Source of the DNA: a bacterium
GTDB taxonomy: Bacteria; Bacteroidota; Ignavibacteria; Kapaibacteriales; UBA7675
NCBI GenBank assembly: GCA_030430495.1
Contig: JAUIKM010000021.1
Span: 1-64,000 of the forward strand
Direction of reading: 5' to 3'
DNA length: 64,000 bases
A program made the position numbers and the translations under genes. Under the pieces are notes generated by a model. It was not told the DNA's origin. It worked only from the letters and a program-made list of their open reading frames with translations, and made no database searches. Positions 29,063 through 44,018 of this stretch are shown one piece after another. Every line of letters begins with the position of its first letter. Positions within the stretch are counted from its first letter, which is position 1.

Positions 29063-30265
29063 TTAGTGACTATGCTCAGCTTCACCTTTCTTCATTTCTG
29101 CCAACAAGTAGTAAGCATTGTTCCAGGCAACAGCAGTGCTTTTTTCCAATGGTTTGAATAGTTTAATCTCTATCCAATTATTGTCTCGCTTACCAACCAT
29201 CACTTCTATGGGGTGAAATGCCCATCCGGAGTTTCCATTATCAATCTCTTTTTCAGCGGTAAAGATGAAATATTTGCCACCTTCTCTCACCACACCTGCT
29301 TCCGGCAGAGCATAACTTTGTCCACTATCGGTTAAGATTCGGCCCCTTATATACATTCCCGGTATCAAAAAGCCTTTTTTACTATCAATTTCAGCGTGAA
29401 GATGGATGGCTTTCGGAGACTGCTCAAACGTTTTCCCAACCGCAAAAACAGTTGCTTTCAGTTGTTTATCGGGTAGTGATTCGACTGAAAAATCGATTTT
29501 TTGCCCTTCTTTCACCTTGTGCATATCCTTTTCAAAGACCATAAAATCGGCATGGATGTGGTCAGAATTAACTATCTCAAATATCTCAGATTGAGGCTCA
29601 ACGAACTGCCCTGTTTTCACTTTTACTGACCGAATGTGCCCCTCGATTGGACTTAGTACGGGTACTTGCTCATAGATGTCACCTTGACGCACTTTTTCAA
29701 TGTTTAACTCCATAATATCTAATTGAGCCTCATAGCCTTTTACCATGCCTTTCATCGATTGGTAGTCTGCCCATATTTTTTGAAACTCTTTCCCTGATCC
29801 AACTTTTTCTTCATACAACGTCTCTTGTCGCTGGTACTCTTGCTCAAGGTACTGAAGCTGGAACCAGCTCTTTACATAGCCGGTCTGTAATGTAATCAGA
29901 TCAGGGTGGCTAAGATAGGCCAGCACCTGTCCTTTGTTTACTTTGTCTCCTTCAATGACTTTAATAGTCGTAACGTTGGCTCCTATAATTGCGGTAACAA
30001 CCGCTTCATATTGTGGTAGCACCTCCAGTTGCCCATTTGCCTCTATATATGAACTGAGGTTTCGAAGAGGCAGTGTATCTGTTTTCATGTCCAATGACTG
30101 AAATTGTTGCTCGGAAAAATGGACTTCATCTCCGTGTCCCTCTTCGTGTTTGTGGTGACCGGATTCTTCATTTCCTTCATGGCTATGACCATCTTCATTA
30201 TGTCCCGAATCATTGCAGGCTATTAAAAACAAGGCTGTTACAATCGACATGATCAGTGCTTTCAT
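29063..30265 (-). CDS. cusB: RND efflux periplasmic adaptor lipoprotein (CusB/CzcB type)
   Basis: A 400-residue protein with a lipoprotein signal (MKALIMSIVTALFLIAC) and a His-rich metal-binding-like stretch right after it (HNEDGHSHEGNEESGHHKHEEGHG). Next come the barrel-sandwich and helical hairpin of membrane-fusion proteins (VIGANVTTIKVIEGDKVNKGQVLAYL ... VLSPIEGHIRSVKVKTGQFVEP). The C-terminus is again His-containing (EAEHSH). It links the inner-membrane pump to the outer-membrane channel and may hand metal to the pump. The ATG at 30265 is chosen because GGAG lies 8 bp before it. Last gene of the operon with the CusA-TolC fusion, 41 bp downstream of it. Confidence 0.9.
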   Translation of the reverse strand: MKALIMSIVTALFLIACNDSGHNEDGHSHEGNEESGHHKHEEGHGDEVHFSEQQFQSLDMKTDTLPLRNLSSYIEANGQLEVLPQYEAVVTAIIGANVTTIKVIEGDKVNKGQVLAYLSHPDLITLQTGYVKSWFQLQYLEQEYQRQETLYEEKVGSGKEFQKIWADYQSMKGMVKGYEAQLDIMELNIEKVRQGDIYEQVPVLSPIEGHIRSVKVKTGQFVEPQSEIFEIVNSDHIHADFMVFEKDMHKVKEGQKIDFSVESLPDKQLKATVFAVGKTFEQSPKAIHLHAEIDSKKGFLIPGMYIRGRILTDSGQSYALPEAGVVREGGKYFIFTAEKEIDNGNSGWAFHPIEVMVGKRDNNWIEIKLFKPLEKSTAVAWNNAYYLLAEMKKGEAEHSH

Positions 30266-30306
30266 ATTATTCTCCATAGTACATTTATGATGTTTTGTTT
30301 ATTGTG

Positions 30307-33300
30307 TCATTGACCAATTAGGAATTCCAGGCTGACAACAGCATGGTTGAATCCATTTAACGTATTGATGTAGTCATGCTTAATCTCCAGCGCCTGATTC
30401 AGGTTCTGAAAGTACTCAACATAATCAATGGCTCCGCTGTCATAACTTTTCTGGGAGTTATAAATAGTTAAATCGGCCTGTGGAACCGCCTTTTCCCTAA
30501 AATACTTCAAACTGCCCTGGAGTTTCTGTACCTCTTGTAGTTGCTGTGCATACTGCCCCTGAAGAACAGTGTTGTAGTAGTCAGCATTAATTTGAGCCAT
30601 TTGTTTTTTGAGTTCTGCTGATTCTATATTCGCATTGTAAGAACCAAAAAACACAGGAATGGATATTCCTGCCTGAAAGCTTGAAAAGCGGTCGGATCCA
30701 CTTGCAATATCACCATTGGCGGTTGGAATTCCGATAAGAGATTGGTTTAAATATCCTATCGAAAAAGTGGGCAGCATTTTAGCTGATTGCACGTCCTTTT
30801 CAGCACCGGCAATATCAACCAGAACTTTTGCATAGGCTAACAGTGGGGTGTTGGCAAGATATTTTGAATCGTTAACAGTAGCCGTTGACCGTTCATCCAA
30901 GGGTGCAGGTGCAAAGCTGAGAATGGACGTATCATTTATGAGAACCCGAAGCTGTTGCTCCTGGATGGCAATATCCGATTCAATCAACTGAAGCGCGTTT
31001 TTTATTTCCATCTCCCTGGTCTCTGCCGCCACTTTTTCCAGATACCCGCTAGCCCCAGTTGCATACCGCAGAGTAGCGGCACGCAAGAACTTGCTAAAAA
31101 GGCTATCCTGATACCGAAGTAGCTTTTCCTTTTCTCTGAAAAAAGCCAGTTGATACCAGGCCTTTCTAATATCTCGTTGCAACGTATTTTCTGTCACGGC
31201 CAACTTCAATTCGCTTTCCCTTATTCTTTCCGCCGCCAATTTCCCCCGATTTGTGTAAACCGTAGGAAATTCAAAATTTTGGCTAAGGTTAATGGCAAAG
31301 TCGGTTTCAAAACTGTTGTACTGCCCAAGTTCTATGCCTATATCGGTTTTATCAGGATTAAAAGCCGCTTGCTTTCTGTGCCCCTGTAGCTCAATATTGG
31401 CTTTTGCCGCCTGCACACTTCCATTGTTGTTAAACCCAAGTTTAATTGCCTCCTCGACCGTTGTAATTATTTTATTCTCTTGGCTCTGCGCTTTGAGTTC
31501 GCCGCCAGAATAACATGCCATACCGCCTGTCAAAAGCAGCGAGACAATAGCTTTGGGAATGACCGCCTTCGCGGTTTTGCCTTCCATCCACCTGTATAAA
31601 ATTGGCAACACAAACAGCGTTAAAAAGGTAGCGGTTATCATGCCGCCAATCACAACCGTTGCCAACGGTCGCTGTACTTCGGCGCCGGCAGATGTGGAAA
31701 TTGCCATAGGTAAAAATCCCAACACATCGGTTAAAGCGGTAAGTAGGATAGGCCGTATTCTTCCTCTGGCTCCCAATCGAATCCTTTTATTCAAGTCGGT
31801 TATACCTTGTGATTTTAACTCGTTCCACTCACTTATCAACACCAGGCCATTTAATACGGCAACACCAAATAACACAATAAAACCTACGCCTGCCGAGATA
31901 CTGAATGGCATATCCCGTAGCCATAAAGCGAAAACTCCCCCAATGGCTGCCAGCGGAATAGCCACGTAAATCATCGTCGTTTGCTTGATGGATTTTAGAG
32001 CAAAAAATATAAGCAAGAAAATCAATCCTAACGCAATGGGCACAACGATTTGCAGTCGTTTGCTGGCACGCTCCAGATTCTCAAAGGCACCGCCATAACG
32101 AATGTAATACCCGGGAGGAAGCTCTAACTGTGCATCGAGTTTGTGCCGAATTTCTTCTACCAACGATTTAATATCACGGCCTCTTACGTTAATGCCTACG
32201 TAAGTTCTCCGGTTCGTATTCTCCCGACTTATCTGCATCGGACCGGTCTGGTAGCTAATCTCGGCCACCTCTCTAAGTGGAATTTGCGATCCGTTGGGCA
32301 CGTTGATATACAGGTTTTTGATGTCTTCAATGCTTTTTCTGTATTGTTCGTGTAATCGGACCACAAGGTCAAAGCGTTTTTCCCCTTCAAAAATCACACC
32401 GGCTTTACCTCCCGCAAAAGCAGATTGCACAAGAGTATTCAACTCCTTCACGTGCAAGCCATATTGAGCCAACTTATATCTGTTATATGTTACAGTCATT
32501 TGTGGAAGTCCGCTGGTGGCTTCAACCTTCATATCTGCCACGCCCTGAACAGTAGAAATAATCTCACCCATTTCCTCTGCTTTTGCTGCCAACACCTCCA
32601 AATCTTCACCGAATAATTTGACGGCAATGTCTTCCCGAACACCGGTAAGCAGTTCGTTGAAACGCATTTCGATAGGTTGCGTAAATTCGTAGTTTACTCC
32701 AGGAACGGTACTAACCGCCTCTTTCATTTTGTTAATGAGTTCTTCCTTGCTACTTGCGCTCACCCATTCGTCTTGAGGTTTAAGCAATACAAAACAGTCG
32801 CCAATATCCATCGGCATTGGATCGGTCGGCACTTCCGCCACTCCAAACCGCGTCATGGCGTGATTAACTTCAGGAAAATTTGCAAGCAGGATCTGTTCGA
32901 TTTTTGTTGACGTTTCTATGGATTCAGTTAGTGAGCTTCCTGGTTTAAGTATGATGTGAAAAGCTATATCTCCTTCATCTAGCTGGGGTATGAACTCTCC
33001 GCCCATCCTGCTGAAGATAAATATTGCCAAAACGAGTAAAGCAACAGCTGCCCCTATTACCCATTTTGCGCCTTTCAAGGCTTCTCCCAATGTGGGTTCG
33101 TATATGTTTTCCAACCAGATGACAAAACGATCTCCCCACGAGGTGTTATTTTTTGTGTTTATGCGGATAAACCAGGCCGACATCATAGGTACGTATGTCA
33201 GACAAAGGATCATCACACCAGTCATGGCGAACATGAATGTAAGCGCCATCGGCTGAAACATTTTGCCTTCAATGCCCTCTAAGGCTAGAATCGGGATAAA

Positions 33301-34677
33301 GACAATCAGGATTATTAACTGACCGAAAAAGGCCGCATTCATCATTTTGCTGGAAGCGTTATACGCAACCTCATTGCGGACACCTGCGGTGATGTTTTGT
33401 TTTTTTAACACCTTGTTGTGAAGCAGAAATACGGTTCCTTCCACAATAATCACCGCTCCGTCAACAATTATCCCGAAGTCAATGGCTCCCAGGCTCATCA
33501 GGTTTGCCCAAACCCCAAACAAGTTCATCATTACAAACGCAAATAACAGCGACAGAGGAATGGTGGATGCAACAATTAAACCGCCTCTCCAATTACCGAG
33601 TAAAAAGACCAGCACAAATATAACTATCAGCGCTCCTTCCATCAGGTTTTGACTAACGGTGCTTGTTGTCTTTGAAATCAGAGTGCTTCGGTCGAGAAAT
33701 GGCTCGATGTGCACACCTTCAGGCAACGACTTTTGAATGTCTGCGATGCGCCCTTTAACGGCTTCAATAACATCGTTGGAGTTAGCACCTTTAAGCATGA
33801 GTATCATGCCGCCAACTGCCTCACCTTTTCCGTCTTTGGTAAAAGCGCCATATTTAACAGCTTTTCCAAACTTCACTGAAGCCATGTCTTTAATGGTGAT
33901 CGGCAAGCCATTCACAGTAGTAATTACTATGTTTTCGATATCCTCAATACTCCGCGCTAATCCTTCGCCCCTGATAAAATTGGCATAGTGATCTTTTTCA
34001 ATGTACGCCCCCCCGGTATTTTGGTTGTTCATTTCCAGGGCATGGAAAATATCAGCAATAGTCAAGCTCATGGCTTTTAGCTGGTCCGGGTCAAGAGCTA
34101 CTTCGTATTGTTTAATATCACCGCCAAATGCGTTGACTTCCACTACGCCCGGCACCATTGCCATTTGTCTGCGCACAATCCAGTCTTGAATAGTGCGCAG
34201 ATCTGCCGCACTATATTGCCCGGAAAAAGCCGAATCAACTTCCAAAGTATACTGGTATATTTCGCCCAGCCCGGTGGATATGGGGCCCATAGAAGGTTCG
34301 CCAAAACCTTGTGGGATTACTTCTTTAACTTCTGTCAGTTTTTCCGCCACCAGTTGCCTGGGGAGATATGTCTCCATATCATCTTGAAATACAATGGTTA
34401 CCACCGATAATCCGAAACGGGAAACCGAGCGTATTTCTGTAACTCCCGGAAGGTTGGCCATTGCCACTTCTACGGGGTAGGTAACAAACTGCTCGATATC
34501 CTCTGTACTGAGGTTAGGAGCTTGCGTGATTACTTGTACCTGGTTATTCGTAATATCAGGCACGGCGTCCAGCGGAACCTTGGTCATGCTCCATATTCCT
34601 CCTAGGATGAGGGCAATAGTGAGCAAGCCAATCAACAGCTTGTTATTTATTGAGAATAAAATTATTCGATTAATCAT
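30307..34677 (-). CDS. cusA: Heavy-metal RND pump fused to a TolC-like outer-membrane channel (CusA-OMF fusion)
   Basis: A 1456-residue fusion. Residues 1 to about 1030 are an HME-type RND pump: MINRIILFSINNKLLIGLL, KVPLDAVPDITNNQVQV, the membrane motif AIDFGIIVDGAVIIVEG, and the second half GGEFIPQLDEGDIAF ... GFIVLFGVAVLNGLVLISEW. A short hydrophobic, signal-like stretch (about 1035-1055) leads to an outer-membrane-efflux domain (about 1060-1456) with long coiled helices (ATRAAKANIELQGHRK-type, SAELKKQMAQINADYYNTVLQGQ). Such fusions are a known feature of Bacteroidota; processing into two proteins is likely because the parts belong to different membranes. Predicted substrates are Cu+/Ag+ or Zn/Co/Cd. 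The ATG at 34677 is used; the 8-bp repeat array begins 39 bp upstream. Confidence 0.92.
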   Translation of the reverse strand: MINRIILFSINNKLLIGLLTIALILGGIWSMTKVPLDAVPDITNNQVQVITQAPNLSTEDIEQFVTYPVEVAMANLPGVTEIRSVSRFGLSVVTIVFQDDMETYLPRQLVAEKLTEVKEVIPQGFGEPSMGPISTGLGEIYQYTLEVDSAFSGQYSAADLRTIQDWIVRRQMAMVPGVVEVNAFGGDIKQYEVALDPDQLKAMSLTIADIFHALEMNNQNTGGAYIEKDHYANFIRGEGLARSIEDIENIVITTVNGLPITIKDMASVKFGKAVKYGAFTKDGKGEAVGGMILMLKGANSNDVIEAVKGRIADIQKSLPEGVHIEPFLDRSTLISKTTSTVSQNLMEGALIVIFVLVFLLGNWRGGLIVASTIPLSLLFAFVMMNLFGVWANLMSLGAIDFGIIVDGAVIIVEGTVFLLHNKVLKKQNITAGVRNEVAYNASSKMMNAAFFGQLIILIVFIPILALEGIEGKMFQPMALTFMFAMTGVMILCLTYVPMMSAWFIRINTKNNTSWGDRFVIWLENIYEPTLGEALKGAKWVIGAAVALLVLAIFIFSRMGGEFIPQLDEGDIAFHIILKPGSSLTESIETSTKIEQILLANFPEVNHAMTRFGVAEVPTDPMPMDIGDCFVLLKPQDEWVSASSKEELINKMKEAVSTVPGVNYEFTQPIEMRFNELLTGVREDIAVKLFGEDLEVLAAKAEEMGEIISTVQGVADMKVEATSGLPQMTVTYNRYKLAQYGLHVKELNTLVQSAFAGGKAGVIFEGEKRFDLVVRLHEQYRKSIEDIKNLYINVPNGSQIPLREVAEISYQTGPMQISRENTNRRTYVGINVRGRDIKSLVEEIRHKLDAQLELPPGYYIRYGGAFENLERASKRLQIVVPIALGLIFLLIFFALKSIKQTTMIYVAIPLAAIGGVFALWLRDMPFSISAGVGFIVLFGVAVLNGLVLISEWNELKSQGITDLNKRIRLGARGRIRPILLTALTDVLGFLPMAISTSAGAEVQRPLATVVIGGMITATFLTLFVLPILYRWMEGKTAKAVIPKAIVSLLLTGGMACYSGGELKAQSQENKIITTVEEAIKLGFNNNGSVQAAKANIELQGHRKQAAFNPDKTDIGIELGQYNSFETDFAINLSQNFEFPTVYTNRGKLAAERIRESELKLAVTENTLQRDIRKAWYQLAFFREKEKLLRYQDSLFSKFLRAATLRYATGASGYLEKVAAETREMEIKNALQLIESDIAIQEQQLRVLINDTSILSFAPAPLDERSTATVNDSKYLANTPLLAYAKVLVDIAGAEKDVQSAKMLPTFSIGYLNQSLIGIPTANGDIASGSDRFSSFQAGISIPVFFGSYNANIESAELKKQMAQINADYYNTVLQGQYAQQLQEVQKLQGSLKYFREKAVPQADLTIYNSQKSYDSGAIDYVEYFQNLNQALEIKHDYINTLNGFNHAVVSLEFLIGQ

Positions 34678-34715
34678 GGCTATATGCGTTTGGTAGAAAT
34701 GTGACAATAATGGCC

Positions 34716-36024: not shown

Positions 36025-37275
36025 CTAAAAATAAGTGCTGAACCCAAATAACCATGCTGCAGTTCTGGCAGGTGGGTTGTTTAGGATGTCTGTTTGCCAC
36101 TGGTAGCGATAATTCAACCTGAATACAGTTTGTGCTGAAGGCCTAAAGCTAATAGCCGGAGTAATCGCCCATAAATGCTCACCAATATCTGTACCTGTTT
36201 CGTCGAATGCACCTACATTCCAGTCTACATAATCCAACCGGAGAGAAAGGTTAAGAACAGCCTTTTCCCAATTAAATATTTCTCTTTTTAATACAGGCTG
36301 AACGATGTCAATAAAAGCCCCTTGTTGTTTGTTTCCATATTGTTGAGTGTAAGTTGACGGAACATCCACCATTACCCAAACCACTCCACCTACAACATAA
36401 GTCCCTGTTTTTTGAATGGTGGTATTCAGATCAACGGCAAAAACATCTAACCTTCTTTTCTCGTCAAGGTTTACCCCATCGTCCTCAAACTTGTTGTAAA
36501 CCCCACCCATGTAAGAAAGCCCAATTTCACCAATGTTCCGGTTTTTTATGGCTATTTTACCGTTCATTAAGGCCATGCCACTGTTATTTTCTTCAAAGCG
36601 TTCTTCATTCTCTTTGGTGGCTGGTAAAAAAGTTTTGTTTTCTTCATTGTCAATAATGCTATTATCGAACCCATTGGTTAAATAGGCTTCATAACCCAAC
36701 ACCCAATTCTCTCTGAATGTTTTTCCATACAGACCAAACCCGGCATTCGACCAGGTAGCAGGCAACATATTCACCGCTACATCAGGGCGTTCTACGAATT
36801 CCCATTTCGGGCCATCATGGTTTTGGTTAAATGCACCAATAGGGTTCATTATAATTCCACCCCTGAAATTCAGTGCCGGATGAAAAGCAACATCCATTGC
36901 TGCAAATTCTATCCCTATTTCCTTTGTGCCGTCCTCAAACTCCAGCTCCGCAAGAAACTTGATCCGCTTGGTGATAGAAGCCGACATAAACATAGTTAAC
37001 CTCCGTGCCTGGAACGACAAACCTTCCGACACTCCATCTTCCGAACTATAAAATGAATTAGCTTCCAGATATCCACCCAATGCCACCGGCATTTTATTCA
37101 CCGTTAAAAACGGACGGTTATAGGCAGCATCCATATTCATTAAAGAGCTTGTCGTATCAGTGGGAACACGGGTAATGAGCGAATCCAGTGTTTGTGCCTT
37201 CAAAGTGCATGATACGATTACAAACAGGCATCCAAGCACCCATTGTCTAGGATAAATAGATGTAAATATTATCAT
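36025..37275 (-). CDS. Outer-membrane porin-like beta-barrel (OprP/phosphate-selective porin type)
   Basis: A 416-residue protein with a signal peptide ending in KAQ, then a beta-rich sequence of alternating strands (LGGYLEANSFYSSEDG, LSFQARRLTMFMSASITKRIKFLAELEFEDG) and a C-terminal Phe (FGFSTYF) typical of outer-membrane barrels. The start of the barrel (G-Y-x-E plus RRxxL ... AELEFED) resembles phosphate-selective porin O/P relatives. It overlaps the end of the Rieske gene by 29 bp and is the last gene of that operon. Likely role: outer-membrane passage for the ion or ligand handled by the redox lipoproteins encoded upstream. Substrate not known. Confidence 0.7.
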   Translation of the reverse strand: MIIFTSIYPRQWVLGCLFVIVSCTLKAQTLDSLITRVPTDTTSSLMNMDAAYNRPFLTVNKMPVALGGYLEANSFYSSEDGVSEGLSFQARRLTMFMSASITKRIKFLAELEFEDGTKEIGIEFAAMDVAFHPALNFRGGIIMNPIGAFNQNHDGPKWEFVERPDVAVNMLPATWSNAGFGLYGKTFRENWVLGYEAYLTNGFDNSIIDNEENKTFLPATKENEERFEENNSGMALMNGKIAIKNRNIGEIGLSYMGGVYNKFEDDGVNLDEKRRLDVFAVDLNTTIQKTGTYVVGGVVWVMVDVPSTYTQQYGNKQQGAFIDIVQPVLKREIFNWEKAVLNLSLRLDYVDWNVGAFDETGTDIGEHLWAITPAISFRPSAQTVFRLNYRYQWQTDILNNPPARTAAWLFGFSTYF

Positions 37276-37687
37276 GATCAGTTTCAGTTTTAAATGTTTT
37301 TAAATTTTGATCTGCAGGGCCTTCCAAAACCTTCCCGGTTGTAGAAAATTCGCTGCCATGACAAGGACAGCTATAAATACCGCCTCCCACATTCAGCTCA
37401 CAACCATTGTGGGTGCATTTAAGCAGGGAAGCGATGTATGTGTCTTTATTTGTCTTATACAAACAAACAGGAAAACCCATTCCGTCTGTTTTCAGCAGGA
37501 CAAAATCACGGCTCACCTGTTTGTCTTCCTTCACCTTCATAAACTCAGATTGGGCAACAATGAGCCTGCCTGGTTCACGGATAAAAGCTGCATAATGGAT
37601 AGCTCCGCAAGACTGTAACAACGAAGCTCCTAAAGGAAAACCGATAGCAGAGTAACAACAGGTTTTTATGAATTTTCTGCGTTCCAT
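37247..37687 (-). CDS. Rieske [2Fe-2S] lipoprotein
   Basis: A 146-residue protein beginning MERRKFIKTCCYSAIGFPLGA with a possible lipobox LLQSC near residue 27. The Rieske cluster motifs are complete: CTHNGC (with C-x-H) and CPCHGSEF. It is not followed by a cytochrome b gene, so this is not a bc1 complex. The gene starts 1 bp after the stop of the di-heme protein gene and overlaps the porin gene, so the three are co-translated. Electron transfer between the di-heme protein and another partner in the periplasm is the likely job. Confidence 0.85.
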   Translation of the reverse strand: MERRKFIKTCCYSAIGFPLGASLLQSCGAIHYAAFIREPGRLIVAQSEFMKVKEDKQVSRDFVLLKTDGMGFPVCLYKTNKDTYIASLLKCTHNGCELNVGGGIYSCPCHGSEFSTTGKVLEGPADQNLKTFKTETDHDNIYIYLS

Positions 37688-37688
37688 T

Positions 37689-38885
37689 TTATAGCGATTC
37701 CAGGAATTTGATAAGTTGCTCCTTTTCAGTGCTGGTAAGCAGTGTATAATTGGTTTTGGACTGCTCGGCTTCACCACCGTGCAATAATATGGCTTCGTCA
37801 ATACTCATGGCACGGCCATCGTGTAATAAGAAATATGCGCCTCCCTGTGCATCTTTAGATAAGCCTATTCCCCAAAGCGGTGGTGTTCTCCATTCAGAAG
37901 TCAGGGCGTACCCTTCTGTATAACCATCGTCCAGGCCAGGCCCCATATCGTGCAATAGCAAGTCGGTGTAAGGATGGAACTCTTTGTTTGAAAGTGCGCT
38001 GATTGGCGAAGATCCCGTAGTTAATGTGGGAGTATGGCAAGACGCGCACTGAATGTCAGAGAAAATCTGCTTACCGTCCAGTACATCAGGGTTGTCTTGA
38101 TCTCGTTGAATGGGAGCTTTTAAAGTTTTCAGATAAAACACCACATCATGTACTGTTTGGGTGCTTACCTCCGGATCCACTTCCAATTCACTGTACGGGT
38201 CTATGGGTTCAAACAATGAGGTAACACCCATATCCTGGTTATAGGCTCCTGACGTTTGATGCAATAGATCATAGGCTGCTGCTTTTTTTCCAAATCTTGA
38301 AATATACCTTCCGTTTCGAGAAAGGCTGTTTGGGCGGAGCGTAACATAGTTGGGTATCGTATTCCAGTGGAGCCGTCCGCTAATACCATCACCGTCTGAA
38401 TCATCGGGGTCAGCTAATGCAATTAGGTCGGCATCACTTACTGCATCTAAAAAGCCTAAGCCTGAAACAGCAGGAGCTATCAAGTCCGTTGAAGTAGCAC
38501 CGGCTGGAAGCTGTTCGGGTTGAAAGCCAGGTATGGCCTTGTGCTGTAACTGCGGACCACCCAGGGCGAGAAACTGATTCCCCAATGTATCGGGCTGCCC
38601 AAAACGAGTGAATTTTACAAACGGTGTTCCCTTCCCATCACCCGCATGACAACTGGCACATTGATTGGCAACGAAAATGGGTCCCAAGCCTTTTTCAACG
38701 GTAAACACTTCGCCAAAAGCCTCATCTCCTTTAAGAAATTGGGCCTGTTCTTCTGCATTCAACCCTTCCATAGGGCCATCTAACAACGAGTTTTCGTCTG
38801 GTGCAGGGGGCATTGTTTTATCGCAAGAAACTGCGATAACCGCCAGAAGAAACACGATAGATGTAAAAGAAAATGTATTTTTCAT
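37689..38885 (-). CDS. Di-heme oxidoreductase-like lipoprotein (DUF1111/CxxCH family)
   Basis: A 398-residue protein with a lipoprotein signal (MKNTFSFTSIVFLLAVIAVSC) and two heme-c motifs CASCH (about residues 82 and 291). The rest matches the di-heme thiol-oxidoreductase-like family (GPIFVANQCASCHAGDGKG; DPDDSDGDGISGRLHW; IFSDIQCASCHTPTL; WRTPPLWGIGLS; LLHDGRA; ALLHGGEAEQS). Known relatives are often found with imelysin-type iron-uptake proteins in iron-regulated operons. Here imelysin is absent and a Rieske lipoprotein and porin follow instead. A DtxR-like operator lies 30 bp upstream, so metal control is expected. Confidence 0.87.
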   Translation of the reverse strand: MKNTFSFTSIVFLLAVIAVSCDKTMPPAPDENSLLDGPMEGLNAEEQAQFLKGDEAFGEVFTVEKGLGPIFVANQCASCHAGDGKGTPFVKFTRFGQPDTLGNQFLALGGPQLQHKAIPGFQPEQLPAGATSTDLIAPAVSGLGFLDAVSDADLIALADPDDSDGDGISGRLHWNTIPNYVTLRPNSLSRNGRYISRFGKKAAAYDLLHQTSGAYNQDMGVTSLFEPIDPYSELEVDPEVSTQTVHDVVFYLKTLKAPIQRDQDNPDVLDGKQIFSDIQCASCHTPTLTTGSSPISALSNKEFHPYTDLLLHDMGPGLDDGYTEGYALTSEWRTPPLWGIGLSKDAQGGAYFLLHDGRAMSIDEAILLHGGEAEQSKTNYTLLTSTEKEQLIKFLESL

Positions 38886-38914
38886 GGCAGTTATACTCCA
38901 TATCCTAATGAAAA

Positions 38915-38932
38915 GATTAGGCAAATCTAATC
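38915..38932. promoter_or_regulatory. DtxR-type operator between the di-heme operon and the DtxR gene
   Basis: GATTAG (38915-38920) and CTAATC (38927-38932) form a perfect inverted repeat around GCAAAT, giving GATTAGGCAAATCTAATC. The shape (TTAG-type half-sites) fits DtxR/IdeR/MntR boxes. It lies 30 bp from the di-heme start codon and just upstream of the regulator's promoter, so it can control both directions. Confidence 0.65.
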
Positions 38933-38938
38933 ATTATG

Positions 38939-38971
38939 TTTGAAGTATCTAATTATTTTTCTGTATTTTTG
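38939..38971 (+). promoter_or_regulatory. Bacteroidota-type promoter of the DtxR gene
   Basis: TTTG at 38939-38942 and TATTTTTG at 38964-38971 match the Bacteroidota -33/-7 elements (TTTG and TAnnTTTG) at a spacing of 21 bp, and end 17 bp before the ATG. This supports a Bacteroidota source for the island. Confidence 0.5.
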
Positions 38972-38988
38972 TGAAAAAGTATGGCTAA

Positions 38989-39654
38989 ATGGGACCAAGC
39001 AAAACCGAAGAAGATTACTTAAAGGCAATTTATAAGCTCTCCAAGGTTCAACCCAAAGGAGTTGCTACAAAATCCATAGGTGATTTACTAAATCTAAAAC
39101 CACCTACGGTTTCTGACATGTTAAGAAAACTTGGAGATAAAAAATTCATCAAATATGCCAAGTATAAAGGGGTTACCCTGACCAACGAGGGAGAAAGGAT
39201 TGCGCTCAAAATTATCCGTAAACACCGACTGTGGGAAACCTTTCTGGTGGATCACTTTAAATTCAAATGGGATGAAGTACATGACATTGCCGAACAATTA
39301 GAACACATTGATTCTGCAAGACTCGTTGAACGGTTAGATGAGTTTCTGGGATTTCCGAAATTTGACCCACATGGAGATCCAATTCCTGATAAGGACGGCG
39401 TTATAGTACCTCGGCATGATATAACTTTAGACCAAATTAAAAAGGGTCAAAAGGCAGTATTGGTTGGTGTAAAAGACCATTCGACTGAATTTTTAAAATA
39501 TTTGGAAAGCATTTCGCTCACATTGGACACAGAAGTAAAAGTAATTAACGTGATCAATTATGATAAGTCAATCGTTGTTAAGGCAGGAAATCATTCAGAA
39601 AGAAATCTATCATTCCAGGTTTCTAAAAACATTATCGTTCAACGAAACCAGTAA
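38989..39654 (+). CDS. DtxR/MntR-family metal-dependent regulator
   Basis: A 221-residue protein with an N-terminal winged helix (TEEDYLKAIYKLSK; TKSIGDLLNLKPPTVSDMLRKLGDKKFIKYAKYKGVTLTNEGE), the metal and dimer region (IIRKHRLWETFLVDHFKFKWDEVHDIAEQLEHI, with conserved H-x3-E and H-x3-E-x2-E-H) and a C-terminal SH3/FeoA-like domain (IKKGQKAVLVGVKDHS ... ). The choice between Mn2+ and Fe2+ cannot be made from sequence. It is divergent from the di-heme/Rieske/porin operon with the operator in the shared promoter region, so autoregulation plus control of that operon is likely. Confidence 0.9.
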   Translation: MGPSKTEEDYLKAIYKLSKVQPKGVATKSIGDLLNLKPPTVSDMLRKLGDKKFIKYAKYKGVTLTNEGERIALKIIRKHRLWETFLVDHFKFKWDEVHDIAEQLEHIDSARLVERLDEFLGFPKFDPHGDPIPDKDGVIVPRHDITLDQIKKGQKAVLVGVKDHSTEFLKYLESISLTLDTEVKVINVINYDKSIVVKAGNHSERNLSFQVSKNIIVQRNQ

Positions 39655-39848: not shown

Positions 39849-40640
39849 TCATAATTTTAATATTCGGTAGGCCCCTTGTGCTACTATCACGAACACAACT
39901 CCGCCGATAATCAGATCAGGTATACTTGAACTTAACCAGTTTACAAGTAGTCCAGCTACAATGACGCCTGAATTAATGATGATGTCATTTGAAGTAAAAA
40001 TCATGCTTGCCCGCATATGGGCTTCTCTACTTTTTCCTTGTTGCAGTAAGTAAAGGCAAATACTATTTGCAACCAATGCTGTGATTGAAACAAGTATCAT
40101 CGTGCTAAAGTCAGGCATGCTCTCAAGACCAACCGAACGCCGCACAACTTCCAGAAATCCAATTGTAGCCAAAATAATTTGAAAGTACCCGGCAAACTTC
40201 GCAACACGACGCTTTCTTTCGGCGGCACCTCTAACAGCAAATAGAGCAAGCCCATAAACAATACTGTCGGCAAGCATATCCAAACTGTCGGCAACCAAGC
40301 CCATTGAACTGGCTACGAGTCCGGCTATGATCTCAATGGCGAAAAATGAAGCATTAATGATCAGAACCGTCCACAAAAGCTTCCTTTCTTTGCCTTGCTG
40401 ATTGTAAGTTGCAAGAACTACATCACTTGACTTGGTTGAAATCAATGTGGTATTGAGTCTTAAACTCTCTAAGGCTGCAAGTATAGGCTCCGCTTGTCCG
40501 GTATGGTGCACCTTTAGCTCGCGTTGCGGAATATCAAACTCCAATGCTTGTATTTGATGAAACTCTTCCAGCTTCATCCGGATCATTTGTTCTTCAGATG
40601 GGCAATCCATTTTGGTTATTTTGAAGGTTGACGCTTTCAT
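39849..40640 (-). CDS. Cation diffusion facilitator with N-terminal HMA-like domain
   Basis: A 263-residue protein. Residues 1 to about 65 form an HMA-like fold in which the usual M-x-C-x-x-C is replaced by MDCPSEEQMIRMKL. Residues of about 85-263 are a CDF transporter with six hydrophobic segments; the metal-site residues appear in VADSLDMLADSIVYG (the D-x3-A-D type site) and later in IFTSNDIIINSG. CDF proteins export divalent metals in exchange for protons. Similar MDCPSEE-CDF proteins occur in Bacteroidota metal-resistance loci. Last gene of a minus-strand run with two exported proteins, facing the ArsR-MerTP operon. Confidence 0.82.
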   Translation of the reverse strand: MKASTFKITKMDCPSEEQMIRMKLEEFHQIQALEFDIPQRELKVHHTGQAEPILAALESLRLNTTLISTKSSDVVLATYNQQGKERKLLWTVLIINASFFAIEIIAGLVASSMGLVADSLDMLADSIVYGLALFAVRGAAERKRRVAKFAGYFQIILATIGFLEVVRRSVGLESMPDFSTMILVSITALVANSICLYLLQQGKSREAHMRASMIFTSNDIIINSGVIVAGLLVNWLSSSIPDLIIGGVVFVIVAQGAYRILKL

Positions 40641-40703
40641 GTATTCCTATGCTTCGTGTAGCGGATTAACTTGGTACGATATTGGAGCACCCCTAAAATG
40701 GCT

Positions 40704-41708
40704 CTACAGCAAGTTGCGCAGTTCATTTACAAAGACTCGCTCATTTAATCTACGTTGTGGCTCTGCACCTGTCTCTCCACTCAGTTGGTGCATCCAAAAC
40801 GTCGGCTTTGGCGGTGGCGCACCTTCTGACCAGTGAATCCCCGGTGCATAGATGAGATAGACATCCCATGCCGTGGGATAATCAGAGTTGAGTTTAAGCG
40901 GCGCTTTAAACAGTTTACCAGCGAGCATCTCCGCATCCCAGAAGTGTGTCCAACGCGTGTGGTCCGCTTCACGTGCCAGTGACTGCGCCTCAGGCAACGC
41001 TCCCCAAGCGTTGATACTGATCCAAACGATAATTCCAGCCAGTTCATTTGTCTCAGGAAACTCATCGGCGAAAATTCGGTTCATCATTCGTTGCCCATTG
41101 ACGCATGCTTTACAGGCTGGATTGGGAATGGATAACACACGCACCTTACCGGAGGCACTGTTAAACGTGTGACGTAGTTCATGCACAGAATCATTAAGCT
41201 CAACGAGATTTTGCTTAGGTGCGGCAAGTGCCTGGTCCGTCGGCTCAATATCACAGGTCACCCCCGGTCCGCTCATTGTAAACGTCGATTCCATTTCCAA
41301 ACCGGCATCGCGCATCGCTTGGAAAATCTCTCGATACCTGTCCATACTATCGAGCCTCAATCGGCAAATGCCGCTGGCAACGTCGATGCTAAAACTATAC
41401 ACCCCAGGCTCGCTGCTTAGCACGGAATGAATACGTGCCGAATCTACTCCGGAGTGCATATTTAACAGAGTAAATTCCAAACTAAACGGCGCAGAGTCCG
41501 GAACATGCGCGGCGTCCTGTGGTGTATTTAAGCTTGGATTGCTCAATATTTTCGCAGCTTCGGTTTCTGCCGGAGGGCTATCGCAAGCCTTTAAAGTTAA
41601 CACAAGAAGCGCTGTAATGCACCAAATCCATGCCCAAAGCCGATTTGATCTTGCTTTAAACCTACCTGCAAACATTGCAAGAAAGTGAAATTGGTCTGGT
41701 TGTTTCAT
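40704..41708 (-). CDS. Exported HMA-like plus thioredoxin-like protein of the mercury-type module
   Basis: A 334-residue protein with a membrane anchor or lipoprotein signal near residues 25-48 (WAWIWCITALLVLTLKAC). A region of about residues 75-145 (FTLLNMHSGVDSARIHSVLSSEPGVYSF ...) has HMA-like spacing without Cys ligands. The C-terminal half is thioredoxin-like with a C-x-x-C motif (NPACKACVNGQRMMNRIF) and a later WTHFWDAEMLAGKLF and WDVYLIYAPG. It may reduce or shuttle thiol-bound metal in the periplasm. Start at ATG 41708 (MKQPDQFHF); the longer frame to 41789 is less likely. I know related proteins only as uncharacterised; the function is inferred. Confidence 0.6.
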   Translation of the reverse strand: MKQPDQFHFLAMFAGRFKARSNRLWAWIWCITALLVLTLKACDSPPAETEAAKILSNPSLNTPQDAAHVPDSAPFSLEFTLLNMHSGVDSARIHSVLSSEPGVYSFSIDVASGICRLRLDSMDRYREIFQAMRDAGLEMESTFTMSGPGVTCDIEPTDQALAAPKQNLVELNDSVHELRHTFNSASGKVRVLSIPNPACKACVNGQRMMNRIFADEFPETNELAGIIVWISINAWGALPEAQSLAREADHTRWTHFWDAEMLAGKLFKAPLKLNSDYPTAWDVYLIYAPGIHWSEGAPPPKPTFWMHQLSGETGAEPQRRLNERVFVNELRNLL

Positions 41709-41827
41709 GACAATTGTTTTCCAAGACTTTGCCTTGGCGAGTTGTAAACTGTTGCGATCGCGTTTCCACTCCAGATACAAACCCAGCAATTCACAATTAA
41801 AATTCGGCTGTTCGAATTCAATTTTTT

Positions 41828-42514
41828 TTAGCGCCCCATCTGGCCCATAATTTCTGTCACAACATCCTCGCCTAACAATTCACCGCAGGCAACAACCAAC
41901 TCCTGTTGCATTTCCAGATTGGCCTGCTCACTGTCTTCACCGTGCATGCGCTCGGCAAGATGGTCGTCGGTGTACCACTTTTCAAATACCGTTTTAACAC
42001 TTGCAACGACCTTGGCTCTTAACCCCGATTCAAGTGGGTGATAATTCTCAATCATTCCCGCAACTCTTTCAGCGACGATCCCCGCTTCCTCCCTGCTCAG
42101 CTGATCGACTTGACGTCCACGATACCAGACACCTTCCTCTCCAAAATGTTCCAGTAACTGCGAGCGGCGTTCCGCATCATTAACTTTTGTAGCGTCCAAT
42201 TCGTGGCGTTGAAACGTTGAATCGATGAACGCTATTTTGTCATCGTCCTTGGCGGTTTCGTTCCAAATAACGGCAATAACAGTGCCACTGCGATTCAGCC
42301 AAGCTTCGACGACCAGCTTATCCCTTTCCAGATCGAGCAAAACCGGTTTGGAGCGGCTACCGCATCCAATGCTGGGGGCAGCGTTACACACAAGAGGAGC
42401 CTCGTAAAAGTCCAGCAGTGTCGTGTCTTGCTTGGACATGTTGGCATTCAGGGAAAAAATCAGAGATACGACCAAAACAGTAACAAATCCATAAAGAGCA
42501 GTATTTTTCTTCAT
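41828..42514 (-). CDS. Exported protein of unknown function with paired Cys, mercury-type module
   Basis: A 228-residue protein with a signal peptide or anchor (MKKNTALYGFVTVLVVSLIFSL). A conserved-looking block follows: YEAPLVCNAAPSIGCGSRSKPVLLDLE, with two Cys in C-x6-C spacing, then beta-alpha sequence and a charged helical C-terminal half (YHPLESGLRAKVVASVKTVFEKWYTDDHLAERMHGEDS). I recall similar C-x-A-P-x-I-G-C-G-S-R proteins beside metal-resistance genes, but no function is known. First gene of the minus-strand operon; the ArsR-type palindrome lies 198 bp upstream of its start. Confidence 0.6.
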   Translation of the reverse strand: MKKNTALYGFVTVLVVSLIFSLNANMSKQDTTLLDFYEAPLVCNAAPSIGCGSRSKPVLLDLERDKLVVEAWLNRSGTVIAVIWNETAKDDDKIAFIDSTFQRHELDATKVNDAERRSQLLEHFGEEGVWYRGRQVDQLSREEAGIVAERVAGMIENYHPLESGLRAKVVASVKTVFEKWYTDDHLAERMHGEDSEQANLEMQQELVVACGELLGEDVVTEIMGQMGR

Positions 42515-42711
42515 TTTATCGTCTACAACTGGATTTGAAGTTCAGACTTTGTACCAACACGTGGACCGTGAACGAGAGTGATTCGTGTTGACTCTTTCGT
42601 CCGAACGTTCAGATGTGGATGCTCACCAGTTAACGGTACCGACAAATTGTCCGAATTGCGACCGACGCTTGCTGTGAGCAAAAATTAGAGTTGGATAAGC
42701 TCCGTTATTTA

Positions 42712-42729
42712 AGTACTTTCTAAAGTACT
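42712..42729. promoter_or_regulatory. ArsR/SmtB-type operator between the divergent operons
   Basis: AGTACTTTCTAAAGTACT has perfect 8-bp arms around CT. It lies 38 bp upstream of the ArsR-family gene and in the shared upstream region of the minus-strand operon. Flanking TTA and AAT extend the dyad loosely. ArsR/SmtB proteins bind such AT-rich imperfect palindromes and release them on metal binding. Confidence 0.65.
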
Positions 42730-42767
42730 AAATTAATTGCAGTCTTCTTAATTCCTGGATAATAAAA

Positions 42768-43142
42768 ATGGCTGAAACTTGCGTTCGTGAAAAGGCCGAT
42801 GTGAATAAAATCAAGCGCTGCCGTTCGGAAATTGAGAACAAGGCTGCCGAAATATGCTCAACAGCAGCGATCATGCGCTTGGCCGGTAATGAAACACGCC
42901 TACAAATTTTGTATCTACTCGCGTTGGAGCGAGAACTTTGCCCCTGTGACCTCAGTGATATCCTGGGTCTGAGTATGTCGGCGATATCGCAACATTTACG
43001 GAAGCTCAAAGATGGGAATTTGGTCATTCATCGCAAGCAAGCCCAAACAGTGTTTTACGGAATCGCTCCGCAGTACCGCGTCACATTGTCGGTGTACTTT
43101 CAGACGTTTAGTAATATATCTGCCGGAGTTGAGGCGGTATGA
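42768..43142 (+). CDS. arsR: ArsR/SmtB-family metal-sensing repressor
   Basis: A 124-residue winged-helix repressor. Two N-terminal Cys (C5 in ETCVREK and C17 in IKRC) and the pair ELCPCDL in the recognition region are possible metal ligands, as in CadC/SmtB relatives. The HTH is LCPCDLSDILGLSMSAISQHLRKLKDG. Proteins with this ELCPCDL-type segment are found ahead of MerT-type transporters in Bacteroidota. It overlaps merTP by 4 bp (ATGA), so the two are co-translated. The sensed metal is most probably Hg2+ or another soft metal; Cd/Zn is possible. Confidence 0.85.
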   Translation: MAETCVREKADVNKIKRCRSEIENKAAEICSTAAIMRLAGNETRLQILYLLALERELCPCDLSDILGLSMSAISQHLRKLKDGNLVIHRKQAQTVFYGIAPQYRVTLSVYFQTFSNISAGVEAV

Positions 43143-43747
43143 AAATTGCCGGAGTCTCATCCTTGGCCGGCATAGTTTCGGCCTTCGCCGCTTCTCTTTG
43201 CTGTTTGCCGCCAGTTTTAGCTCTCGTTGGAGGGTTAAGTGGTGCGGCGACCGGATTTACATGGATGGAGCCGCTGCGTCCCTACCTCATCACTCTCACC
43301 GTCATTTCCTTGGGATATTCATTCTATCGCGTTTATAGAACATCTCCGCAATCTGGATGTTGTAAAAACGAGTGTGCGACGCCAGGTCCATCATTCTTAC
43401 ATTCGAAAACGTTCGTTTGGCTAATCTCTGGTCTCGCAGCGATCTTCATCGCTCTGCCTCACTATGTGGAGGTGCTTGGACCTCGTCACGAAAATTTGGA
43501 TAATCTAAATGGTTCAGAAGTTTCAGTCGCTCGATTCGAAGTAACTGGAATGAGTTGCCAGTCGTGTGCCGTACACATAGACTTGCAGCTGGAAGAAGTA
43601 ATGGGCGTACTACAAAGCGCTTCTTCCTTCGAAATGCGACAAAGTGTTGTGCACTATGATTCAACGCAGGTGTCACTCGAAAAATTGGAAATGGTGATTA
43701 GCTCGACAGGGTACAAGGTTAAAAGTCATGAACGTCTAAAGAACTAA
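43139..43747 (+). CDS. merT: Mercuric transport fusion protein MerTP
   Basis: A 202-residue protein. The N-terminal part has three membrane segments and the MerT Cys pair SLCCLPPVLALVGG; a cytoplasmic loop has another Cys pair (SGCCKNEC). The C-terminal 70 residues are an HMA domain with GMSCQSCAVHIDLQLEEVMGV, equivalent to MerP. Fused MerTP imports Hg2+ for reduction by MerA in known systems. No merA or merB gene is present in the window, which leaves the destination of the imported metal open. Start overlaps the ArsR stop. Confidence 0.88.
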   Translation: MKIAGVSSLAGIVSAFAASLCCLPPVLALVGGLSGAATGFTWMEPLRPYLITLTVISLGYSFYRVYRTSPQSGCCKNECATPGPSFLHSKTFVWLISGLAAIFIALPHYVEVLGPRHENLDNLNGSEVSVARFEVTGMSCQSCAVHIDLQLEEVMGVLQSASSFEMRQSVVHYDSTQVSLEKLEMVISSTGYKVKSHERLKN

Positions 43748-43802
43748 CATACATCAATTCCTACCGGGATTTCTCATTTTGAATATACAGGATAAGCAAG
43801 CT

Positions 43803-44018
43803 ATGAAAACAGAACTGATATTTCTGTCAACAATCACATGCCCTGACTGCGATTTTAAACAAACGGAAACCATGTCCACCGGCGCATGCCAGTATTTTTA
43901 TGAATGCAAACAATGTAACGTGCTCATGAAGCCAATGGCTGGTGATTGCTGTGTTTTCTGTTCCTATGGAACTGTACCTTGCCCTCCGATCCAGCAAGAA
44001 AAAGCATGCTGCAACTAA
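43803..44018 (+). CDS. GDCCVxC-domain small protein
   Basis: A 71-residue Cys-rich protein. It has C-x2-C in TCPDCDF and in ECKQC, then the signature GDCCVFCSYGTVPCPPIQ, and ends with CC. This matches the GDCCVxC-domain (seleno)protein family, small proteins usually located in mer operons downstream of merT. Here the residue that is selenocysteine in some relatives is Cys. Predicted to bind soft metal ions in the cytoplasm. It follows merTP by 55 bp. ATG at 43803 is used; an upstream in-frame start would add eight residues. Confidence 0.82.
   Translation: MKTELIFLSTITCPDCDFKQTETMSTGACQYFYECKQCNVLMKPMAGDCCVFCSYGTVPCPPIQQEKACCN

Follow-up and report, generated by a model that had tools for sequence, protein, structure and literature searches.

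The window analysed here (64,000 nucleotides; positions 1 to 64,000 of contig JAUIKM010000021.1, assembly GCA_030430495.1, Bacteroidota, Kapaibacteriales) carries, at 39849-44018, a mercury-type module in which merTP is followed by a gene for a small cysteine-rich protein of the GDCCVxC family in place of the reductase gene merA. An earlier reading of this DNA without database searches (the sequence-only reading) had proposed that arsR, merTP and the GDCCVxC gene face genes for two exported proteins, here P3 and P2, and an HMA-CDF transporter; all six genes were confirmed at their coordinates:

39849..40640, minus strand: HMA-CDF transporter of 263 amino acids (PF01545), metal exporter candidate
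40704..41708, minus strand: P2, probable lipoprotein combining a weakly HMA-like domain with a thioredoxin-like one that contains CKAC
41828..42514, minus strand: P3, exported protein (C43-x7-C51-G) with a predicted N-terminal HMA-like fold and a C-terminal helical domain
42705..42736: inverted repeat TTATTTAAGTACTTT-ct-AAAGTACTAAATTAA (15-2-15), ~30 bases before arsR
42768..43142, plus strand: arsR, ArsR/SmtB repressor, first gene of the mer-type operon (PF01022 and NF033788, over cut-off)
43139..43747, plus strand: merTP, MerT-MerP fusion transporter (NF033556, PF02411, PF00403)
43803..44018, plus strand: GDCCVxC protein (member of NF041374, 96 bits, cut-off 40), in merA's place

The P3, P2 and HMA-CDF genes diverge from arsR, merTP and the GDCCVxC gene, which are adjacent and co-directional (arsR and merTP share 4 bases), with no merA within 4 kb. 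By NF033556 (188 bits, cut-off 180) MerTP is a MerT/MerP-type Hg(II) transporter. The GDCCVxC protein probably starts at ATG 43803, though its open reading frame opens at 43779, and the most likely start of P2 is the ATG at 41708 rather than the long-frame start at 41789. P3 is exported, as had been proposed, with its cysteines spaced C-x7-C and not C-x6-C. The HMA-CDF transporter belongs to the CDF family by PF01545 (52.8 bits, cut-off 26.6); it scores 65 bits against TIGR01297, below the cut-off of 82, lacks the C-terminal CDF domain and has a degenerate N-terminal HMA (MDCPSEE).

The sequence-only reading had left room for a merA elsewhere in the genome. None was found, nearby or elsewhere in the assembly (5.6 Mb, 80 contigs, 95.6% complete), by a search with the MerA hidden Markov model (HMM) or by a DNA pattern for the active site (GGTCVNxGCxPSK), which matched every merA-positive control genome included and had zero matches here. 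The top HMM match (C2:5069; 308 bits, cut-off 454) was rejected as MerA, being a lipoamide dehydrogenase with GGICLNWGCIPTK and without a C-terminal CC. Given the completeness of the assembly, merA is likely absent from the organism; merB gave no match either, in a weak test, as the same search matched none of the control genomes. Because MerA, a defining part of the canonical mer operon, was not found, the locus is not classed as one. In another genome (G074) a genuine MerA (L139:6640-8409) was missed by the genome-wide HMM search and recovered by the pattern; such negatives therefore need a second method.

Among 396 genomes sampled from the phylum, MerTP is present in 71, that of the window included. 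Scoring of 77 MerTP loci in the 70 other genomes, with GDCCVxC counted within 4 kb, gave 39 loci with GDCCVxC and no merA, 34 with merA and no GDCCVxC, four with neither and none with both (the raw counts were 33 merA-only and five with neither, before the MerA of G074 was read directly); the exclusivity has a Fisher p of 9e-18, a statistic that ignores kinship. Only 3/35 genomes with a GDCCVxC-linked MerTP have merA anywhere, and in the remaining 32 neither a repeat HMM search nor the active-site pattern found MerA. MerTP without MerA is the commoner architecture among the sampled MerTP loci and not an oddity of this locus. The sequence-only reading had suggested that the two exported proteins could be the missing parts of the system; the constant occupant of MerA's place is instead GDCCVxC, P3 being an accessory and P2 rarer still.

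These counts also bear on whether the window holds a mer operon in decay whose merA was lost, or whether merA lies in the 4-5% of the genome that was not assembled. The assembly is split into 80 contigs, mobile elements often carry MerA and MerTP, and the true MerA of G074 did escape the HMM search. However, all genes of the module are open, 39 loci keep the arrangement without merA, and 32 of the 35 carrier genomes lack MerA by both methods; because the arrangement recurs, decay or a missed merA is improbable.

Nine cysteines are invariant in 14 aligned members of the GDCCVxC family, nearly all of which end in CC, resembling the terminal CC of MerA. The curated name of NF041374, "GDCCVxC domain-containing (seleno)protein", states no function, and no mention of the protein was found in the open-licence literature searched; its link to MerTP and its exclusion of merA are added here. 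A protein in exactly merA's position, mutually exclusive with merA, with cysteines that recall MerA and "(seleno)protein" in its family name, could also be a catalyst, i.e. a small enzyme of redox chemistry or of organomercurial handling (some bacteria having selenocysteine forms of it) that replaces MerA chemically and is not a carrier. We consider this quite unlikely: no flavin or nucleotide-binding fold is recognised in its ~70 residues, we know of no activity for it, and exporter genes, which a reductase would not need, accumulate near GDCCVxC (see below). A flavoprotein follows GDCCVxC in two loci and not generally. This protein (L119:7162-8589; L120:7256-8596) is glutathione-reductase-like, lies directly after MerTP-GDCCVxC, lacks MerA's C-terminal CC and is a possible alternative reductase.

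The MerTP proteins of merA-type and GDCCVxC-type operons interleave in a tree, and the two kinds of operon share an operator. In the tree, built from 58 MerTP sequences, with a bootstrap that is not fully settled and a long branch for the window protein, the nine merA-only rows are scattered among the GDCCVxC-linked ones, needing nine changes, at least six of them forced by well-supported forks (e.g. L097, with merA, is sister to L089, with GDCCVxC, with support of 100/100). The repeat at 42705-42736 lies in the divergent promoter region and is likely the operator of ArsR. In relatives the operator TTTAAG[ACT]A-ww-T[AG]CTTAAA (12-2-12) is found once per locus, just upstream of arsR, and is near-identical at ~25 separate loci of the GDCCVxC type and at two or more of the merA type, in operons of both types (e.g. 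L020:6937, L033:7023, L097:1024); in Fibrella it precedes a P3-arsR-merTP operon. As judged from sequence, MerA and GDCCVxC appear to have been repeatedly swapped on one ArsR-MerTP chassis, and the two kinds of operon would sense and take up one common ion, presumably Hg(II). Since the tree interleaves them and the operator is common to both, Hg(II) is the probable substrate.

Another soft metal (Cu, Ag, Cd, As(III) or Zn) could be handled instead, with MerTP and ArsR repurposed and GDCCVxC and the exported proteins as its chaperones. CzcA/CzcB, HMA-CDF, ZntA-type ATPases and an MntR-type regulator are found as neighbours, and the DNA-binding region of ArsR contains ELCPCDL, as As(III)/Sb(III) sensors are known to do. 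We hold this to be unlikely, given the interleaved tree and common operator and the occurrence of P3 within a classical merR-merT-merP-merA operon and on the mercury plasmid pMR68 (PMC3737084).

P3 has no sequence match in Pfam, NCBIfam or PDB (the PDB search gave a chance hit only) and represents an unnamed mer-linked family without a Pfam or NCBIfam model. A search with P3 alone gave no matches in genome contigs, and a three-row alignment yielded 24 further loci, mostly in Bacteroidota, Kapabacteria and Ignavibacteria, with some in Verrucomicrobiota and Acidobacteria; MerT or MerTP was found in 19 of them. The core of the family (C-x7-C, GCGSR[AS]KP and W[YLFH]xx-x-x-VDxLSxxEA in a 21-row alignment) is matched by the window protein. 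P3 is often co-directional with MerTP and is found in MerTP-P3 (L017, L024, L026, L038), MerP-P3-MerT (L037) and HMA-P3 (L012; G030) fusions. L024 comes from Muricauda myxillae 2012CJ39-3, for which the MerA searches gave nothing. Given the known topology of MerT, the MerTP-P3 fusions put P3 in the periplasm, in agreement with the signal peptides that most copies carry. A further fusion, in Kapaibacterium (L031:7995-8828), joins a signal peptide, P3 and GDCCVxC, implying an exported GDCCVxC domain.

P3 homologs are also found on plasmids: directly after merT2-merP2 on pMR68 of the mercury-resistant Pseudomonas K-62 (WP_015061149), in a cluster called incomplete by its authors (PMC3737084), before arsR-merTP on a Fibrella plasmid, and between merR and merTPCADE on a Rhodanobacter plasmid. 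None were found in phages. The annotation of the Fibrella plasmid spreads MerTP over two overlapping frames (L014:9040-9629), probably owing to a frameshift. A nearby merA in relatives, which the sequence-only reading had named as evidence against its proposal, does occur in a minority: true MerA (CVNxGC, terminal SCC) is present in 7/23 P3 genomes other than that of the window, and P3 lies inside merA operons at L028, L034 and on the Rhodanobacter plasmid. With P3 present in only 2/396 genomes of the phylum, it is an accessory of the module and not a constant part.

The AlphaFold2 model of P3 (predicted local distance difference test, pLDDT, 89.8) has a ferredoxin-like N-domain and a C-terminal helical domain. 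By probability, the best solved counterparts of the N-domain in a fold search are HMA domains (Ccc2a and ATP7B, 0.99; CopP, 0.91; CopZ, 0.90; MerP, 0.87), with E-values that are not significant (0.07 and up); a search against viral proteins gave nothing useful. P3 is like the MerP/HMA metallochaperone domain in predicted fold, in a cysteine at the start of helix 1 and in periplasmic site, but differs in C-x7-C for CxxC, an extra helical domain and a lack of profile similarity. Assignment to PF00403 by sequence was rejected (no Pfam hit, C-x7-C in place of CxxC, and a profile comparison with MerP that fails with an hhalign probability of 0.6%); the predicted likeness is one of fold, not of family membership.

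P2 has a CKAC motif and no Pfam hit for its thioredoxin-like domain. Its sole convincing homolog in the 396 genomes (G140; 28-29% identity, 3e-18) has CPYC and lies ~6 kb from a MerTP without merA or GDCCVxC, in an island that includes a MerB-like gene; a match in G257 (E 6e-4) contains in-frame stops and was discarded as chance, and no homologs were found on plasmids. Random association of the exported genes, which the sequence-only reading had named as evidence against its proposal, is contradicted strongly for P3 and weakly for P2. The island of G140 (L136:2861-12717, G140:C48), with L138 and L126, represents a second MerTP architecture without merA or GDCCVxC, combining ArsR, a MerP-like HMA, a Cys-rich protein, a YHS/TRASH-like protein and beta-propeller proteins. 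In L116 an exported HMA-thioredoxin fusion unrelated to P2 lies between GDCCVxC and MerTP. A putative periplasmic thiol partner thus recurs, the case of P2 itself resting on one homolog.

P3, P2 and CDF might form a separate operon placed beside arsR-merTP by chance, being on the opposite strand and, for P3 and P2, rare in the phylum. For P3 this is already refuted by its co-direction with, and fusion to, MerTP in many relatives; with a P2 homolog in a MerTP island and homologs of the CDF transporter (59-66% identical) near MerTP in L019, L102, L105 and L111, chance is a very remote explanation overall.

Exporter genes (ZntA-type ATPase, CzcA or HMA-CDF within ~6 kb) were found at 15/23 GDCCVxC-type and 5/20 merA-type loci (p 0.014), and a ZntA-type ATPase alone at 9/23 and 0/20 (p 0.002), in a comparison chosen after the GDCCVxC loci had been seen and with p values that ignore kinship; the enrichment is suggestive only.

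The reading we lean towards, with modest confidence, is a merA-less mercury-type module in which Hg(II) is moved along thiol acceptors and sequestered or exported, not reduced. ArsR would respond to a soft metal, with Hg(II) the likeliest, by freeing the divergent promoter. Capture of the ion would take place in the periplasm, on the MerP part of MerTP and on P3, through the HMA-like domain and its conserved C-x7-C; P2 may keep thiols reduced or accept metal as a relay. MerT would then pass the ion inward, and the clustered cysteines and C-terminal CC of the GDCCVxC protein would accept it at the stage at which MerA would otherwise bind and reduce it. Bound to thiols, the metal would be stored or given to an exporter, which would be the HMA-CDF transporter or the nearby CzcA in the window and a ZntA-type ATPase in relatives. 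Periplasmic thiol exchange followed by export, raised as one option by the sequence-only reading, is the account that best fits the gene neighbourhoods. A wider claim, that GDCCVxC, with P3 where present, is a reductase-independent means of Hg(II) disposal that has replaced MerA many times on ArsR-MerTP, the thiolate being expelled or stored and never becoming Hg(0), is possible and put forward tentatively.

Several points weigh against the thiol-transfer reading. The exclusivity of merA and GDCCVxC is not absolute, two loci outside the 396-genome sample (L028, L036) having both. The L031 fusion would put that copy of GDCCVxC in the periplasm, contrary to a cytosolic acceptor, and capture may take place there instead. 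The window operator has the half-sites of its relatives but a wider spacing, and the likeness of P3 to HMA is significant in neither fold nor profile comparison. The HMA stretch of P2 scores 20.7 bits, under the gathering cut-off of 24.8 (PF00403), and the P2 structure model is unusable (pLDDT 39.5). The exporter comparison was post hoc, and the metal handled is itself something we infer.

The module is mer-like up to the import step and departs from the canonical mer operon at MerA. With the Bacteroidetes-type operon (ArsR-MerTP-MerA) it has in common regulator type, MerTP fusion, gene order and operator, and Bacteroidetes mer operons are known to use ArsR instead of MerR (PMC3466566); it differs in GDCCVxC for merA and in the addition of P3, P2 and the CDF exporter. 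The merT2-merP2 cluster of pMR68 (PMC3737084) similarly has merT-merP without a merA of its own, followed by a P3 homolog, but there a full mer operon lies elsewhere on the plasmid, MerT and MerP are separate, and the P3 homolog was annotated as no more than a hypothetical protein. Another mer-linked accessory gene, merG of plasmid pMR26, is reported to lower phenylmercury permeability (PMC3737084, PMC3466566). The proposed handover of a soft metal from thiol carrier to exporter is like that of CopZ-CopA/ZntA chaperone-exporter pairs, except that here MerTP uptake would precede the carrier and the GDCCVxC-exporter step is a proposal.

No description of an ArsR-MerTP-GDCCVxC module was found in the open-licence literature searched, including passages of PMC3466566 and PMC8261052. 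Mercury-resistance surveys are anchored on merA (PMC3466566, PMC8261052), so merA-less modules go uncounted; detoxification that does without MerA and relies on thiols, sulfide and other means is discussed in PMC8261052. Should GDCCVxC really replace MerA, about half of the sampled MerTP loci would retain mercury rather than volatilise it, and the scoring of such bacteria in mercury cycling would change. A widespread protein of unknown role would gain a function, P3 would be named as a new partner family, and the puzzle of Hg(II) import without a reductase would become a one-operon question.

The module lies next to further metal-resistance and redox genes:

29063-30277, minus strand: CzcB, neighbouring metal-resistance gene
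30307-34707, minus strand: CzcA (TIGR00914, 1208 bits)
36025-37275, minus strand: porin-like gene
37247-37801, minus strand: Rieske gene (PF00355)
37689-38924, minus strand: di-haem oxidoreductase (PF06537)
38989..39654, plus strand: MntR/DtxR-type metalloregulator (PF02742, PF01325), between the two gene groups

G+C content is 43-46% across ~29000-50300, against ~61% at 2.7-26.5 kb and 55-61% on other contigs, and the island genes (porin, Rieske, di-haem, MntR, CzcA/CzcB, HMA-CDF) recur partly or wholly beside MerTP in L109 and L117; the region at ~29-50 kb therefore looks like a horizontally acquired island and is probably a metal island gained in this way. The porin-like, Rieske and di-haem oxidoreductase set (within 36025-39654) is also found beside MerTP-GDCCVxC in these two loci, accompanied in L117 by the MntR gene at the same position.

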